The notes under the pieces were generated by a model that saw only the letters and a program-made list of their open reading frames with translations, had not been told where the DNA came from and made no database searches. A stretch of DNA of 38,285 nucleotides from a virus. The translations under genes were made by a program, and so were the position numbers. Each line of letters begins with the position of its first letter. Positions within the stretch are counted from its first letter, which is position 1. This document shows, piece after piece, positions 12,789 to 38,285 of this stretch. The stretch spans positions 1 through 38,285 of the IMG/VR virus record IMGVR_UViG_3300038701_003238. One strand, written 5' to 3'.

Positions 12789-13946
12789 TCAGGGGTCGGG
12801 TGCGGTCATTTCGTCGTTGGTCGGGTGGCCACGCTCGGGCGCGATCTGCCACTCGGGCACCGGGTTGCCGGGGGTGAAGATCCGGCGGACCTGGCCGGCG
12901 GCGCGCAGCTCCTCGAGCACGGCCGCGAGGTCATCGGGCTCGTCGCCGAGCGCGTCGATGATCTGGCCCTTGGTGCGGGGCTTGCCGTCGCGCAGCAGCG
13001 CGCCGAGCGAGGCGGCGGTGGCGTGGGCGCCCTCTTGGGCGGCTATGGGCTTTTCATGGGTGGGACGGGCAAGATGCCCGTCCGAGTTTGCGGGCTTCAC
13101 CAGGCCGACGCGGACCGTGCGCCGGTTGACCGCGGTGGGCTGGATGTGCGGGTCGAGCCAGACAAAGCCCTGCTCGGCGAGGGATTTGAGGATGTCCCAG
13201 AAATCGTTGAACTCGGTACCCGGCAGCGCGCACATCGCGTACACAAACTCGGCACGCACGGCGGTCCGTTGGCTCGAAAGGTAGCTGATGACACTGTTGC
13301 CCATGTCGGTTTCGCGCTTGCCGGGGAAGGTTGGGCCGGGCTCGGGCTCCGTCGGCCCGGCACTGGCGGGCGAGCCGCCAGTGGCACCTGGCGAGGCGGC
13401 GGTGGCGTGGGCGACTTGGGTAGGTTGGTCGTTCGTCGTGTTCTCTCCGGTGAGACGGAGCATCAGCTTCGCGCAGCCGTCGATGATGTCGGCGGCAAAC
13501 TCCTCCCAGGTCTCGCTGTCCGGCGGGCTGTCGGCCCAGCGCATCAGTTGCCCGGCGAATTGGCGGCAGATGTAATCGTGCGAGAGCGTCGGGCCCTTGG
13601 GCTGCGATCGGCGGCCTGTGTACGAATTCAGCAGCTGCTCGAATTCGTTGGGGAACACGAGGTCTTGGGTCACGCGAACGGTGTGGGTCGACTTGGTCTG
13701 CCTCAGCTTCTCGGCGAGTTCGTCGCGGGTGGCGCGGAGCTCGGCTTTGGCCGCGGCGTCCTTGCGCTGCAGCTCGCGGGTCTCGATCAGCTCGCCGTAG
13801 AGCTGCGAGGGCGTGAGTTTCGCGCTGCGCCAGACCGTGCAGGCGTCCTCGCAGATCGCGAGCATCAGCGGCGGGAAGATCGGATCGGAGAGATTCGTCG
13901 GGAGGTTCTGGCCCGCTTCGGGCTGGGCGGCGGTCGCCTGGTTCAT
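12789..13946 (-). CDS. Hypothetical protein with winged-helix-like repeats and two embedded hairpin elements
   Basis: 385 aa; start ATG 13946 with AGGAG 8 bases upstream. I recognise no named family. The N-terminal half is helical (ETRELQRKDAAAKAELRATR is coiled-coil-like). The middle and end contain two stretches that look like small DNA-binding winged helices: EFVYAMCALPGTEFNDFWDI, and LRDGKPRTKGQIIDALGDEP followed by DDLAAVLEELRAAGQVRRIF. The linkers between them are encoded by two palindromic repeat elements (13353-13388 and 13063-13083), each next to a 23-bp direct repeat giving the peptide AHATAAS. So the linkers look like inserted DNA tolerated in frame. Possibly an early DNA-binding regulator; function unproven. 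Confidence 0.65.
   Translation of the reverse strand: MNQATAAQPEAGQNLPTNLSDPIFPPLMLAICEDACTVWRSAKLTPSQLYGELIETRELQRKDAAAKAELRATRDELAEKLRQTKSTHTVRVTQDLVFPNEFEQLLNSYTGRRSQPKGPTLSHDYICRQFAGQLMRWADSPPDSETWEEFAADIIDGCAKLMLRLTGENTTNDQPTQVAHATAASPGATGGSPASAGPTEPEPGPTFPGKRETDMGNSVISYLSSQRTAVRAEFVYAMCALPGTEFNDFWDILKSLAEQGFVWLDPHIQPTAVNRRTVRVGLVKPANSDGHLARPTHEKPIAAQEGAHATAASLGALLRDGKPRTKGQIIDALGDEPDDLAAVLEELRAAGQVRRIFTPGNPVPEWQIAPERGHPTNDEMTAPDP
13063..13083. repeat. Palindromic repeat E inside an early gene
   Basis: GGACGGGC (13063-13070) pairs with GCCCGTCC (13076-13083) around a 5-nt loop. Single copy in this window, within the gene 12789-13946 and 290 bp from repeat D. It resembles a bacterial intergenic hairpin repeat type known to me from planctomycete genomes. 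Confidence 0.6.
13353..13388. repeat. Palindromic repeat D inside an early gene
   Basis: Stem CACTGGCGG/CCGCCAGTG (9 bp) with a 5-nt loop. The 36-bp block matches 31597-31632 with a single mismatch (13370 versus 31614, in the loop). Here it is within the coding sequence of the gene 12789-13946; the other copy is intergenic. I recall near-identical hairpins as abundant intergenic repeats in planctomycete genomes. Confidence 0.8.
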
Positions 13947-20791: not shown

Positions 20792-20844
20792 ACGCTTTGA
20801 AACAAGCGTAACATCGCGTATAGTGTTGCAGATGAGCAACACTA
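20792..20844 (+). promoter_or_regulatory. Promoter with two operator-like inverted repeats, probable leaderless start
   Basis: TTGAAA (20797-20802), 16-bp spacer, TATAGT (20819-20824): a good sigma-70 promoter. An inverted repeat ACGCTT/AAGCGT (20792-20809) covers the -35, and a perfect 9-bp inverted repeat TAGTGTTGC/GCAACACTA (20821-20829, 20836-20844) covers the -10 and start region, with the regulator's ATG (20832) in its 6-bp centre. The start of transcription should fall at about 20831, so the mRNA would begin at or next to the ATG without a ribosome site. This suggests autoregulation by the XRE protein. Confidence 0.65.
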
Positions 20845-21095
20845 GAACCGAACTAAGAAAGCGGGCCGAGCGGGAGCTGGCGACGCGGCACGCCCAGGCG
20901 TCGCCGGTCGTGCTGCGCCTGCTCGATGCGGTCCTGGCGAGCGGCCTGACGATGCGCGAGATCTCGCGGCGGTCGGGCGTGCCGGCGAGCAGCATCAGCC
21001 GGCTCGCCGGCGGCGGCGACCTGAGCGGCGAGTCGATCGACGCGCTCGCGCGGACGCTGGGCCTGGAACTGAAACCGATGAGGGAGGAGAACTGA
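20832..21095 (+). CDS. XRE/Cro-type HTH regulator
   Basis: 87 aa from ATG 20832. The C-terminal half is a classic helix-turn-helix of the XRE family: LTMREISRRSGVPASSISRL, then AGGGDLSGESIDALARTLGL. The N-terminal ~30 residues are a basic helix (RTELRKRAERELATR). It lacks the large C-terminal domain of CI repressors, so it is Cro-like or a short repressor. Its start codon sits in the middle of a perfect inverted repeat, the likely operator. The integrase start follows one base after its stop, so both are co-expressed; the pair is probably the lysogeny control and integration unit. It may also act as an excisionase-like architectural protein. Confidence 0.82.
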   Translation: MSNTRTELRKRAERELATRHAQASPVVLRLLDAVLASGLTMREISRRSGVPASSISRLAGGGDLSGESIDALARTLGLELKPMREEN

Positions 21096-21096
21096 C

Positions 21097-22323
21097 ATGG
21101 GCTCGATCTACAAACGCAAGGGCAGCGGCGTGTACCAGCTGCAGTGGGTGGACGAGAACGGCAAGACGCAGCGGCGATCGTCGCGCACGGGCGACAAGGC
21201 CGAGGCCGCGCGGCTGCTGGCGTCGGTCGAGCACGAGGTCTGGAAGATCCGCGAGGGGCTCGTCGACCGCGCCCAGGTCACGCGGACGCGCGAGATGGCG
21301 CGGCCGATCGGGGAGGTGATCGACGAGTACCTCGAGGCGGTCCGCGCGACGCGCTCGCAGCGCACGATGGCCGAGAAGACCCGGCAGCTGCGCCGCCTGG
21401 CGAAGGCCGAGAAGCTCGCCGTGCTCGCGGACCTGGACGCGGCCGCGCTGCGCCGGCACATGCGGCGGCGCGTCGACGACGACGGCAAGAGCCACTGCGA
21501 GGCCAACCACGCGCGCAAGGAAGCGGTGGCGATGATGAACTGGCTCAGGGCCGAGCGCCGGATCGCCGAGAACCCGCTGGAGTGCGTGGAGAAACTCGAC
21601 GACCAGGGCGACGAGCACCGCGTGTACAAGCGGCGGGCGCTGAGCGTGGAGGAATTCGACGCGCTGCTCGCCGTCGCACGCGAGGCCGATGAACGGCTGA
21701 ACGCCGAGGGCCGCGCGTACACAAGCCGGCGGGAGCTCTACTACGCCCTGGCGATGTACGCGGGTCTGCGCAAGGGCGATCTCGCCCGGCTGCGCTGGGG
21801 CGACATCGACCGCTCGGCCACGGGCGGGGCCGTGGTGGGCGAGCTGGGCGGCCACGGGACGATCACCGTGCGCAACGGCAAGGCCAAGAGCCGGACCGAC
21901 GTGCTGCAGATCCACTCGGAGCTCGCGCCGATCATCGACCGCTGCTGGCCGGCGATGGCGCACCCGAGGACGCTCGCCAAGGAGCTGGTGTTCACCGAGG
22001 TGACCGACGAGACGCGGGCCAAGGACTTCGAGCGTGCGCGGGCGTGGTGGATCGACCGGGCCGAGGACGACCGGGCCGAGCGGGAACGCCGCGAGAAGAG
22101 CTGGTTCATGCTGCCCGACGCGCAGGACCGGCGGATCGACCTGCACAGCCTGCGGTCGACGCTGGGCACGATGCTCGCGCGGGCCGGCACGCCGATCGCG
22201 TCGACCAAGCGGCACATGCGCCACCGCAGGATCGAGACCACCGAGAAGTTCTACACGCACCTGAGCGAGGCCGACGATCGCGCGGCGATCGAGCGGTTCT
22301 CGATGCGGCCGTCGACGGGCTGA
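21097..22323 (+). CDS. int: Tyrosine recombinase (phage integrase)
   Basis: 408 aa; GGGAGGAG lies 9 bases before ATG 21097. N-terminal arm-binding part begins SIYKRKGSGVYQLQWVDENG, like the AP2-like/integrase arm domain; residues ~68-160 form the SAM-like core-binding domain (DEYLEAVRATRSQRTMAEKT); the rest is the catalytic domain. Catalytic residues visible: R225 (AGLRKGDL), H350 and R353 (DLHSLRSTLG), H376 (MRHRR) and the nucleophile Y386 (EKFYTHL). All are present, so it should be active. A strong terminator follows 47 bases after the stop, and the attP region with paired arm repeats and tRNA core begins ~350 bp downstream, the standard int-attP order. Makes the phage temperate. Confidence 0.95.
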   Translation: MGSIYKRKGSGVYQLQWVDENGKTQRRSSRTGDKAEAARLLASVEHEVWKIREGLVDRAQVTRTREMARPIGEVIDEYLEAVRATRSQRTMAEKTRQLRRLAKAEKLAVLADLDAAALRRHMRRRVDDDGKSHCEANHARKEAVAMMNWLRAERRIAENPLECVEKLDDQGDEHRVYKRRALSVEEFDALLAVAREADERLNAEGRAYTSRRELYYALAMYAGLRKGDLARLRWGDIDRSATGGAVVGELGGHGTITVRNGKAKSRTDVLQIHSELAPIIDRCWPAMAHPRTLAKELVFTEVTDETRAKDFERARAWWIDRAEDDRAERERREKSWFMLPDAQDRRIDLHSLRSTLGTMLARAGTPIASTKRHMRHRRIETTEKFYTHLSEADDRAAIERFSMRPSTG

Positions 22324-22369
22324 ACGCGACGCCGAGCCGCCGGACCGAGCCAGCGACCCGACCAGATGA

Positions 22370-22402
22370 CCCGCCCGGGTGTGATGCCTGGGCGGGTTTT
22401 TT
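22370..22402 (+). terminator. Strong intrinsic terminator after integrase
   Basis: CCCGCCCGGG (22370-22379) pairs with CCTGGGCGGG (22387-22396), one G-T pair, 7-nt loop, followed directly by TTTTTT (22397-22402). It lies 47 bases after the integrase stop. Confidence 0.92.
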
Positions 22403-22700
22403 CGTGCCCTGGCCGTGCGTGGTGTGCGGTGCGGGCTCGCGGCCGCGACTCGCGCGTCACTGCGCACCACATTTCGAGCGATTTGCCCGGTATCTCGGCG
22501 GATTCCCACGGCGTTTGGTCGTGGTGGAGGCCGGATTTTCGGTCGGGATGCGCGTACCCGGGATATCCGTGAGGTTTTCAGGGGTCCGGAGGTCTCGATT
22601 GTGACCCCCTCAATCTAGTAGTAAATACTTCAAAATCGGATTCTAGGAGGATCTCCCGGGTGTGCTCGGCGACTGTGTGTAAAACTGTGTGCGATCGCCC

Positions 22701-22734
22701 TGCATCGATATGCATCGCTGTGCATCGCTGTGCA
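22701..22734. repeat. Three 10-bp direct repeats in attP left arm
   Basis: TGCATCGATA (22701), TGCATCGCTG (22711), TGCATCGCTG (22721) and a partial TGCA (22731): exact 10-bp phase, one helical turn. Possible binding array for excisionase or a regulator. Confidence 0.75.
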
Positions 22735-22769
22735 CTTTGGCCCGGTTGAGATGATGCGTGGCGCCTCGA

Positions 22770-22804
22770 CGGTTTTGCCCGCAATTCCGGCGGTTTTGCC
22801 CGCA
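22770..22804. repeat. Two 14-bp repeats at 21-bp spacing near attP core
   Basis: CGGTTTTGCCCGCA at 22770-22783 and again at 22791-22804, i.e. two helical turns apart, 32 bp from the tRNA-derived core. Likely a protein binding pair. Confidence 0.75.
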
Positions 22805-22835
22805 CATTAGGGGGCATCCGGCGAGGGTCGAGGAA

Positions 22836-22882
22836 AGCGGGCGATCGGACTCGAACCGACAACATTCAGCTTGGAAGGCTGG
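22836..22882 (-). other. attP core: 3' half of tRNA-Gly(UCC)
   Basis: On the minus strand the segment reads as a tRNA from the anticodon arm to the 3' end: anticodon loop CTTCCAA with anticodon UCC (22877-22871), 3' anticodon stem GCTGA, 5-nt variable loop, T-arm GTCGG-TTCGAGT-CCGAT, acceptor strand CGCCCGC and discriminator U. No 5' half with acceptor GCGGGCG and D-arm is present, so it is not a complete gene. A 3' tRNA half beside an integrase is the standard crossover region, which restores the host tRNA upon integration. Predicted target: a host tRNA-Gly(UCC) gene. Confidence 0.85.
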
Positions 22883-23468
22883 ACCGGATAGCGGGAATAT
22901 GCCGTATATACGGGGTAAATCGCTGGCCTGCTGCGGGGTGTGTGCGGGAGTGTGTGCGATCGGCCCCCGGGGGGGTGTTCTGGCCCGCCGGATCGCGTGG
23001 CCGGGGAGGGGGGGAGGCCCCCAGCGGGGAGGAATCGTTGGGGGGTCACCTGGCCTCCATTGTTCCGCACGGTTTTTGGGTCGGGATCCCGCCTGCGGCG
23101 GGCGGGAGCGGCCTTCGGCCGCGTGGCGGGGGCCGCCGCCGGGCCCCTTCGGATGGCCTCCCCTGATCCGGTACAAACGCGCGGATTTCAAAACCCCAAA
23201 ACCCTCCCGGGTATCCCGAGTACGCCCGAAAACCGCCGTGCATCGCCCGAACAGAATTCCCTAGTACACCCACAGAACCCGAAAACCGGCACCCTCCCGA
23301 AACCGGGGTAACGCCTTCTTTGGAGTCGGCAATAGAATCGGGATCAGTTTGGGTCGCGAACGGGTTTGCTCGGATTCGGTTTGGTGCCGAAACGCGGCTC
23401 GGGCAGTCCGCGTGCGCGTCGCTGCCGGGTGTCTCCCGGATGGGCGCGGTGCGGGCGGCCCGCGGGCT

Positions 23469-31541: not shown

Positions 31542-31632
31542 TCGGGTGGCGTGGTCTTCGCGCAGCGAAGCCCACGGACGCGAGAACAGGGGCCGACGGC
31601 CCGGCACTGGCGGACGAGCCGCCAGTGGCACC
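31542..31632. repeat. Hairpin repeats B and D in tandem
   Basis: 31542-31577 is an exact 36-bp copy of 9977-10012 (repeat B). 31597-31632 matches 13353-13388 (repeat D) with one mismatch. They fill the gap between the 31003 and 31657 genes. The upstream stop is at 31534-31536, so they may supply a transcript end or stabiliser. Confidence 0.85.
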
Positions 31633-33153: not shown

Positions 33154-33452
33154 TGGGGACTCACCCGTACAGCCAGCATCTTCGGGCGACGCGAGACGGT
33201 CTCAATCGCGAGGCGGTCGCGTTCTACTGCCCCGGCTGCAAGTGCTCGCATCATGTGTGCGTGAAAGCCAGCCCTGGGATCGACGGGCCTGTGTGGTCGC
33301 TCTCGGAGGGGCCGACGATCTCGCCTTCGATCAGGGTCAGCGACAGCGATGGAACGATCTGCCACCTCTTTGTGCGCGGTGGAAAGCTGGAGTTCTTGTC
33401 TGACTGCCGACACGAACTCGCCGGCAGGACGGTCCCGATGGAGGTGGAGTGA
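33153..33452 (+). CDS. DUF6527 family protein
   Basis: 99 aa; ATG 33153 overlaps the previous stop by one base. Sequence pattern AVAFYCPGCKCSHHVCVKAS, then GPVWSLSEGPTISPSIRVSD, GTICHLFVRGGKLEFLSDCR, and HELAGRTVPM: Cys-Pro-x-Cys-x-Cys-x-His, 'G-P-x-W', 'P-T-x-S-P-S-I', 'C-H-x-F-[VI]-R-x-G-x-[IL]-x-F-L-x-D-C-x-H-x-[LM]-x-G'. This matches DUF6527, common in phages next to tail/structural genes, with a probable zinc site. Biochemical function unknown. Confidence 0.85.
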   Translation: MGTHPYSQHLRATRDGLNREAVAFYCPGCKCSHHVCVKASPGIDGPVWSLSEGPTISPSIRVSDSDGTICHLFVRGGKLEFLSDCRHELAGRTVPMEVE

Positions 33453-36825: not shown

Positions 36826-38285
36826 GCGCGTTCCCCTTCACGCAGTCCAGCTTCGCGGGCGGCGTGCTCGGCCGGTCGCTCCTGGGCCGGACCGATCTCG
36901 ACCGCTACCTGGTCAGCTGCTCGGTGCTGCTGAACATGATCCCCGAGCCGGGCGGCGGGGCCTCGAGCCGGTCCGGCACGCGGTTCATCGCTGAGACGCG
37001 CGGCTCGGGCCCGGCCAGGCTGATCGACTTCTCGTTCAACTCCGAGCAGACCTACCAGCTCGTCGTCACCGACGGCTATATCCGCTTCTGCCGCGACGGC
37101 GCGCAGATCGAGTCGGGCGGCTCGCCCTACGAGATCGCCGCGCCCTGGTCGGCGGGCGACCTGCAGGGGCTACGCTGGGTGCAGAGCGCGGATCAGCTGA
37201 TCGTGTGCTGCCCGGGCTACGCCCCGCGCGTGATCTCGAGGGCGGGCGACACCAGCTGGTCGATCGCGATGCTGCCGTTCGACGACGGCCCGTACCTCGG
37301 CGTGAACACGACGACGACGACGCTCGGCGCGACCGGCACGCTCACGACCGGCGGCAGCGTGACCGTCACGGCGAGCGCGTCGGTCTTCGCGGCCGGCGAT
37401 GTGGGCCGGCTGATCCGCATCCGCCAGAGCACGAACCAGGGCGACTGGGGCTGGGTTCGGATCACGGCCTACACGAGCCCGACGGTGGTCACCGCGGAGG
37501 TGGGCTCGACGCTGCACGCGAACCTCGCCTCGACGCCGAGCCGTCACTGGCGGCTGGGGGCCTGGGGCGATGTGCCGGGCTGGCCGGAGTCGCCGACCTA
37601 CTCCGGTGGCCGGCTGTGGCTCTCCTCAACGCCGAGCCAGCCGCAGACCAAGTTCTCGAGCGTGAGCGGCGCGTTCGATCAGTTCCGGCCGTCGGAGCTC
37701 GACGGCAATGTGGTCGACGACAACGCGCTCGTGCTCACGCTCGACGACGATCGCGTGAACAAGATCGAGTGGATGGTCGACCGGCAGGGCGCGCTGCTCG
37801 ACGGCACCTCGGGCGGCGAGTTCGTCGTGCGGGCCCGCTCAAGCGTCGAGCCGATCACGCCGACGAACCTCGGCGCGTTCCGGCAGTCGACGCACGGCTC
37901 GGCCGTCGGCGCTCGCCCGGCCCAGCTCGGGCCGAGCGTGCTGTTCGTGGAGCGAGGGGCCGGCGGCGGTTCGGGCGGGGCGGTGCTTCCGGGCAACGGG
38001 TCCGGCGGCGGCCGCGCGGTGCGCGAGCTGGTGTTCAGCCTCGAGCTCGATCAGTACCTGGCGGCGGATCTCTCGCGCGTGGCGCCCGAGCTCATGCGTG
38101 CGCTGCCGCTCTCGGATGCGGTGGTGCACCGCGACGACGCGGCCGCGAGCGGCGGGATCATCGACCTGGCGGTGCAGCAGACGCCCTGGCCGATCGTCTG
38201 GGGCGTCCGCGCCGACGGCGTGCTGCTGAGCCTGACCTACGACCGCGAGCAGCGCCTGGCCGGCTGGGCCCCGCACACGATCCTT
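36822..38285 (+). CDS. Tail tubular protein B (T7 gp12-like), N-terminal part
   Basis: Starts GTG 36822 inside the preceding stop (GTGA). First residues FTQSSFAGGVLGRSLLGRTD and DRYLVSCSVLLNMIPEPGGG match the gp12 start 'N-x-x-x-G-x-x-S-x-x-x-x-x-R-x-D-x-x-x-Y'. Further: GTRFIAETRGSGPARLIDFS, FSFNSEQTYQLVVTDGYIRF, and ELDGNVVDDNALVLTLDDDR, typical tail-tube phrases. The frame is open to the window end and continues exactly at base 1 because 38157-38282 equals 1-126. Last three bases (38283-38285) differ from 127-129. Full length ~846 aa. Confidence 0.92.
   Translation, partial: MSAFPFTQSSFAGGVLGRSLLGRTDLDRYLVSCSVLLNMIPEPGGGASSRSGTRFIAETRGSGPARLIDFSFNSEQTYQLVVTDGYIRFCRDGAQIESGGSPYEIAAPWSAGDLQGLRWVQSADQLIVCCPGYAPRVISRAGDTSWSIAMLPFDDGPYLGVNTTTTTLGATGTLTTGGSVTVTASASVFAAGDVGRLIRIRQSTNQGDWGWVRITAYTSPTVVTAEVGSTLHANLASTPSRHWRLGAWGDVPGWPESPTYSGGRLWLSSTPSQPQTKFSSVSGAFDQFRPSELDGNVVDDNALVLTLDDDRVNKIEWMVDRQGALLDGTSGGEFVVRARSSVEPITPTNLGAFRQSTHGSAVGARPAQLGPSVLFVERGAGGGSGGAVLPGNGSGGGRAVRELVFSLELDQYLAADLSRVAPELMRALPLSDAVVHRDDAAASGGIIDLAVQQTPWPIVWGVRADGVLLSLTYDREQRLAGWAPHTIL
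38157..38282. repeat. Terminal direct repeat (copy of 1-126)
   Basis: 38157-38282 is identical to 1-126. It lies inside the gp12-like coding sequence, keeps frame, and its length is near the common assembler k-mer of 127. So it is most simply the overlap of a circular assembly, not a biological T7-type terminal repeat. Bases 38283-38285 (CTT) do not match 127-129 (GGC). Confidence 0.92.

Follow-up and report, generated by a model that had tools for sequence, protein, structure and literature searches.

A predicted tRNA-Gly(UCC) attachment site in a podovirus-like planctomycete phage, and related integrases that mostly appear to carry attP within their own gene

The Gordonia phages Whitney and Kuwabara, with cores of 51 and 47 bp, respectively, integrate into tRNA-Gly-TCC (PMC10865867, Table 2). 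Among mycobacteriophages, anticodon-loop cores are common, and paired putative arm-type sites flank the attP cores (PMC10865867). In tRNA-dependent lysogeny, the tRNA gene is not restored by the short core, and a complete tRNA is encoded by the phage (PMC10865867). The Islander collection of genomic islands catalogues anticodon-centred sites, tandem arrays and, rarely, islands with a 5ʹ fragment of the tRNA gene (PMC4383910). Here, we analysed the IMG/VR virus record IMGVR_UViG_3300038701_003238, whose whole stretch of 38,285 nt is called the window below. The attP of the window is of a known kind, namely a tyrosine-integrase attP in a tRNA gene with a lambda-like layout and an anticodon subsite, and our searches of the open-access literature did not turn up a planctomycete attachment site of this type. 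It shares with the two Gordonia phages the target gene and a long core that rebuilds the tRNA (PMC10865867), whereas the host phylum is different and the 12-bp TGTGTG arms are peculiar to the window.

The attP core is located on the minus strand at positions 22834–22881 and reads CAGCCTTCCAAGCTGAATGTTGTCGGTTCGAGTCCGATCGCCCGCTTT. It covers the 3ʹ part of tRNA-Gly(UCC), beginning at position 28 in the anticodon stem and ending 2 nt beyond the discriminator, while position 27 (22882) differs between the phage and the host genes. Using blastn, the core was identical over 48 of 48 nt to complete tRNA-Gly(TCC) genes at three loci (L006, L007 and L009) and over 46 of 46 nt to that at L013, with E values from 1e-17 to 2e-16. 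L006 belongs to a metagenome-assembled genome (MAG) titled Planctomycetota, L009 and L013 are titled Phycisphaerales, and the genomes of L007 and L013 belong to one order. The first-pass annotation had already recognized a tRNA-Gly(UCC) 3ʹ half on this strand, and this identification held; its edges (22836–22882) were off by 1–2 nt. It had also named a lack of matching bacterial genes as a result that would speak against its prediction. A pattern scan with the core covering all GTDB species genomes, planctomycete or other, recovered 10 stretches, namely a displaced half (L008) and nine that are part of complete tRNA-Gly(TCC) genes; the titled records among the nine are Planctomycetota or Phycisphaerales. 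Among 400 genomes of the order, an exact match to 45 nt of the core was present in three, and matches with up to three mismatches were present in 65.

No complete tRNA was detected in the window by ARAGORN, and neither a tRNA 5ʹ half nor a second core is present, as had been claimed for the 5ʹ half. With the L009 gene contributing the 5ʹ half and the phage contributing the core, ARAGORN recognized the chimera as tRNA-Gly(TCC), while no tRNA was detected at the opposite junction. The core thus reproduces one end of a host tRNA gene exactly, and the gene is restored on joining. We rejected tRNA-dependent lysogeny for this phage, as the 48-bp core rebuilds the tRNA and the window lacks a complete tRNA. 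Separately, the contig JANSXG010000043.1 carries a complete tRNA-Gly (L007:6783-6854) approximately 13.5 kb from a 3ʹ-half copy (L008:1262-1305), which can be read as another element in the same tRNA-Gly site; no relative of the window integrase was detected near this pair in the sequence parts examined.

A tyrosine integrase of 408 aa is encoded on the plus strand at 21097–22323 and matches Phage_integrase (PF00589, E 4e-11) and the phrog_1 integrase family (E 3e-37). Its residues R225, K262, H350, R353, H376 and Y386 fall in columns invariant among 12 relatives, so the description of an active-looking integrase just upstream agrees with a predicted intact catalytic set next to the core. The gene ends 510 nt from the core, and an inverted repeat followed by a T run (TTTTTT) at 22369–22402 on the plus strand is its likely terminator. 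Directly before int, a small XRE/HTH_3 protein (20823–21095, plus strand; PF01381, E 6e-6) is a candidate directionality factor or regulator, and sequence similar to it stands directly before int in six relatives (E 1e-3 or better). Identity to the nearest relatives is only about 40%, and the integrase forms a long branch; both points count against our reading. No match was found when viral contigs were searched with the integrase as a single protein, when 50,697 phage records were searched by tblastn, or when plasmid records were searched with the integrase of a relative.

Relatives of the integrase (E 1e-3 or better) are carried by 183 of the 400 genomes. A tRNA gene was located 146–306 nt past the end of the integrase alignment at 50 of the 52 loci examined. 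For the 31 closest relatives by score, this gene was tRNA-Gly (UCC or CCC) in 25 cases, tRNA-Ala in three and tRNA-Val in one, with no tRNA in two, whereas the next 21 relatives included a single tRNA-Gly, the rest being Thr, Lys, Asp, Arg, Met, Tyr, Ser or Ala. The closest relatives lie approximately 150–250 nt from a tRNA-Gly gene, mostly with the UCC anticodon, which is where the annotation had predicted that integrated relatives would be found. Target type was strongly clustered on the integrase tree, with 15 changes compared to a mean of 23.4 after shuffling, and none of 200 shuffles gave a number as low. The window integrase was placed inside the Gly-rich group near those of genomes G032 and G250, both at tRNA-Gly(UCC), with its exact place unsure because of the long branch. 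In some relatives (L086 in G116, L080, L083, L091, L115 and L116), int and tRNA-Gly have the same orientation.

A flanking duplication of about 45 bp had been predicted, and copies of the tRNA 3ʹ part of 44–56 nt were found to bound several related islands. The duplicated part of tRNA-Gly(UCC) extended over positions 27–72 in G129 and G221, 28–73 in G025, 29–72 in G347, 17–72 in G192 and 19–72 in G091 (96% identity), so related integrases with flanking duplications occupy the same gene. In G116, positions 1–41 are duplicated and the element carries the 5ʹ half (L086). The duplications of the 3ʹ type begin at tRNA positions 17–30 and the single 5ʹ-type duplication ends at 41, and the two types overlap only in the anticodon arm; these limits therefore point to an exchange centred on the anticodon arm. 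A duplication in G085 was left out, as it is inverted relative to its tRNA. On contig C18 of G025 (L089, L090 and L105), a tandem array of two elements occupies one tRNA-Gly(UCC), with one integrase per element and three core copies.

The core of the window is flanked by repeated putative arm-type sites on both sides, as seen at the sequence level. All four units lie on the plus strand, with TGTGTGTAAAAC at 22674–22685 and TGTGTGCGATCG at 22686–22697 as P-arm sites 1 and 2, and TGTGTGCGGGAG at 22939–22950 and TGTGTGCGATCG at 22951–22962 as Pʹ-arm sites 1 and 2. These positions bear out the earlier description of paired 12-bp TGTGTG units on each side with one sequence in common. TGTGTGCGATCG occurs in the window only at these two places, a second TGTGTG stands 12 bp before each copy (22674 and 22939), and elsewhere in the window TGTGTG occurs just twice, at 33254 and 33290. 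Between the P arm and the core, three TGCATCG-type repeats with a 10-bp spacing (22701–22733, plus strand) could be candidate excisionase or DNA-bending sites.

The alternative that survives best accepts the core and takes the TGTGTG repeats as regulator-binding sites or chance. It gains from the finding that a single 12-mer shared between the flanks arose in 4% of dinucleotide shuffles, which makes this match weak alone, and from the TGTGTG arm sequence having no counterpart in any relative, which counts against the arm reading and leaves position and layout as its support. The 24-bp match between the window arms (19/24), barely higher than the shuffle maximum of 18, also counts against it. 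However, the units form pairs with a 12-bp spacing and a shared orientation on the two sides, and the same hexamer at +12 bp on both flanks appeared in none of 2000 shuffles. We rebuilt attP from the junctions of nine islands with both ends and sought the best 24-bp match between the flanks. This match was equal to or higher than the highest of 60 shuffles in eight of the nine islands (G016 tied and G221 failed). In the nine islands, the distances of the repeats to the centre of the anticodon loop ranged from −177 to −204 and from +48 to +92, and the arm pair of the window lies at −200 and +65. A natural attP in the viral contig L146 has arm repeats at −189 and +55 (18/24). The arm sequence varies by element (for example, CCAGCTATTCTG in G192), while the layout is constant. 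Because the nine islands carry paired repeats at nearly equal distances, the paired 12-bp units are very probably arm-type sites, as first proposed, and their assignment to something else is unlikely.

Taken as a whole, the region is, with high confidence, the attP of a temperate podovirus-like planctomycete phage whose target is tRNA-Gly(UCC). The integrase would contact the paired 12-bp sites on both flanks through its N-terminal part, and the anticodon arm of tRNA-Gly(UCC), as the core, through its catalytic part. Strands would be exchanged across the anticodon loop CTTCCAA (22871–22877, minus strand), an overlap region presumed from the duplication limits in relatives. As the 3ʹ part of the gene in the phage is identical to that of the host, one junction would have a complete tRNA-Gly adjacent to int, and the old 3ʹ half of the host would be displaced to the other end of the integrated phage. 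The integration target predicted by the annotation is thus supported by the identity of the core and by the targets and duplications of the relatives. A decayed phage tRNA gene, or host DNA picked up by accident and without a role in integration, would fit the absent 5ʹ half, which leaves no functional tRNA; it is a very improbable source of a stretch that matches host genes at 48 of 48 nt, stops at the anticodon stem, is framed by paired repeats beside an intact integrase, and belongs to the tRNA gene used by the relatives of this integrase.

The two ends of the record share a near-terminal direct repeat of 126 bp (1–126 is the same as 38157–38282, followed by three stray bases), and the genome is therefore circular, with a size of about 38,156 bp. 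IMG/VR classes the record as linear, as would suit a mis-joined prophage end with the half tRNA as attR, but the circle closed by the repeat and the single internal core, which has an arm pair on each side and neither a second core nor a 5ʹ half, make this highly implausible. The structural genes mark the phage as podovirus-like, with a predicted terminase, a portal of the T7/BPP-1 type, a Bbp19-like protein, an internal virion protein and a T7-type tail-fibre N-terminus. The structural proteins of the window had no match in the related islands, and these islands are therefore not prophages of the window type. Across the 400 genomes, portal-bearing contigs were found only in G295 and G116, these contigs carry neither a tRNA nor a match to the window integrase, and no integrated copy of the window phage was found among the related islands or the 400 genomes. 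The host can probably be narrowed to a planctomycete lineage (Phycisphaerales or close), a level above species. The phage also contains a 36-bp hairpin element, CACTGGCGG-n5-CCGCCAGTG, at 13353–13388 and 31596–31632 (0 expected by chance), and a nearly identical copy is present on a MAG contig of the order (L008:163-199).

In the integrated relatives, the int frame usually stays open up to the tRNA, and most frames end 46–67 nt into the tRNA gene (G298 and G158, both integrated, have a stop ahead of it). We rebuilt the circular form of 18 islands with both ends found (for example, G192/L095, G129/L088, G091/L094 and L108, G116/L086, G012/L150 and G220/L157). In 17 of them, the int frame crosses the P arm, the tRNA core and the Pʹ arm, and extends 73–107 aa beyond the start of the core. 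A conserved C-terminal segment with the consensus LA....AWP.LP.AIR.GI.AMV.A was present in 16 of these 17 frames, with leave-one-out profile E values from 3e-8 to 9e-23; the tail of G221 is doubtful (E 0.03), and the circular frame of G328 is shifted relative to its own tail. Identities at codon positions 1, 2 and 3 of the tail were 0.56, 0.68 and 0.45, and 48% of the identical residues use different codons, which indicates selection on the protein. Of 201 genomes of the order, 116 had a match to the tail profile; the match was often within an open frame of about 80–120 aa, as would be expected for leftovers at attR. No NCBIfam model matched the two tails tried, and the Pfam search covered the catalytic part. 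Two viral contigs carry an uncut frame. The int frame of L148:2782-4437 encodes 551 aa with a tail match (E 5e-5) and a tRNA-like stretch recognized by eye, and that of L146:2868-4680 runs through the 3ʹ half of tRNA-Gly and ends in a segment that is tail-like by eye and not reported by the tail profile.

The layout with attP inside int is well supported for this family. In the free circle, the relatives' integrase would have roughly 500–550 aa with the conserved segment at its end. After integration, the shortened integrase would usually terminate at a stop codon supplied by the host portion of the tRNA gene, so that integration would take away the conserved tail and spare the catalytic domain. 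Our first hypothesis is that loss of the tail would change the activity of the integrase after integration, and we hypothesize that this truncation acts as a self-acting switch between two integrase forms in bacteria. The window itself does not disrupt its own integrase, as int stops ahead of both the core and the P arm. Its P arm lies in the 510-nt non-coding spacer, in contrast to most relatives, where the P arm is within the int frame, and this counts against the reading; a search of the window with the tail profile gave nothing significant. On balance, we lean towards the combined view that the integrase of the window belongs, without the tail, to a large planctomycete family that normally has attP in int and would have a two-form switch.

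The window and its relatives share with the Islander islands a restored tRNA, a displaced fragment and a putative anticodon subsite, and the relatives also share the tandem arrays and the rare 5ʹ-fragment islands (PMC4383910), whereas the window differs from these islands in being the circular genome of a free phage. The relatives, but not the window with its attP outside int, resemble the archaeal SSV-type integrases in having attP within int and being disrupted on integration (PMC8371274). Unlike the SSV-type, they lose only the C-terminal tail and retain a whole catalytic domain. In mycobacteriophage BPs, integration likewise shortens the C-terminus of the product of an attP-spanning gene; that product is the repressor, while in the relatives it would be the integrase itself (PMC4557955). 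The relatives may thus be a bacterial counterpart of self-disrupting integrases, which a 2021 review described as exclusively archaeal (PMC8371274).

With the attP of the window, the insertion site of an uncultured temperate phage of planctomycetes becomes testable, and its host range is narrowed. Its examination led to an integrase family that is common in Phycisphaerales and mostly has attP apparently in its own gene. If this is confirmed, the statement that self-disrupting recombinases are restricted to archaea would need revision, and bacteria would offer a test of whether an integrase is shortened by the integration that it carries out.
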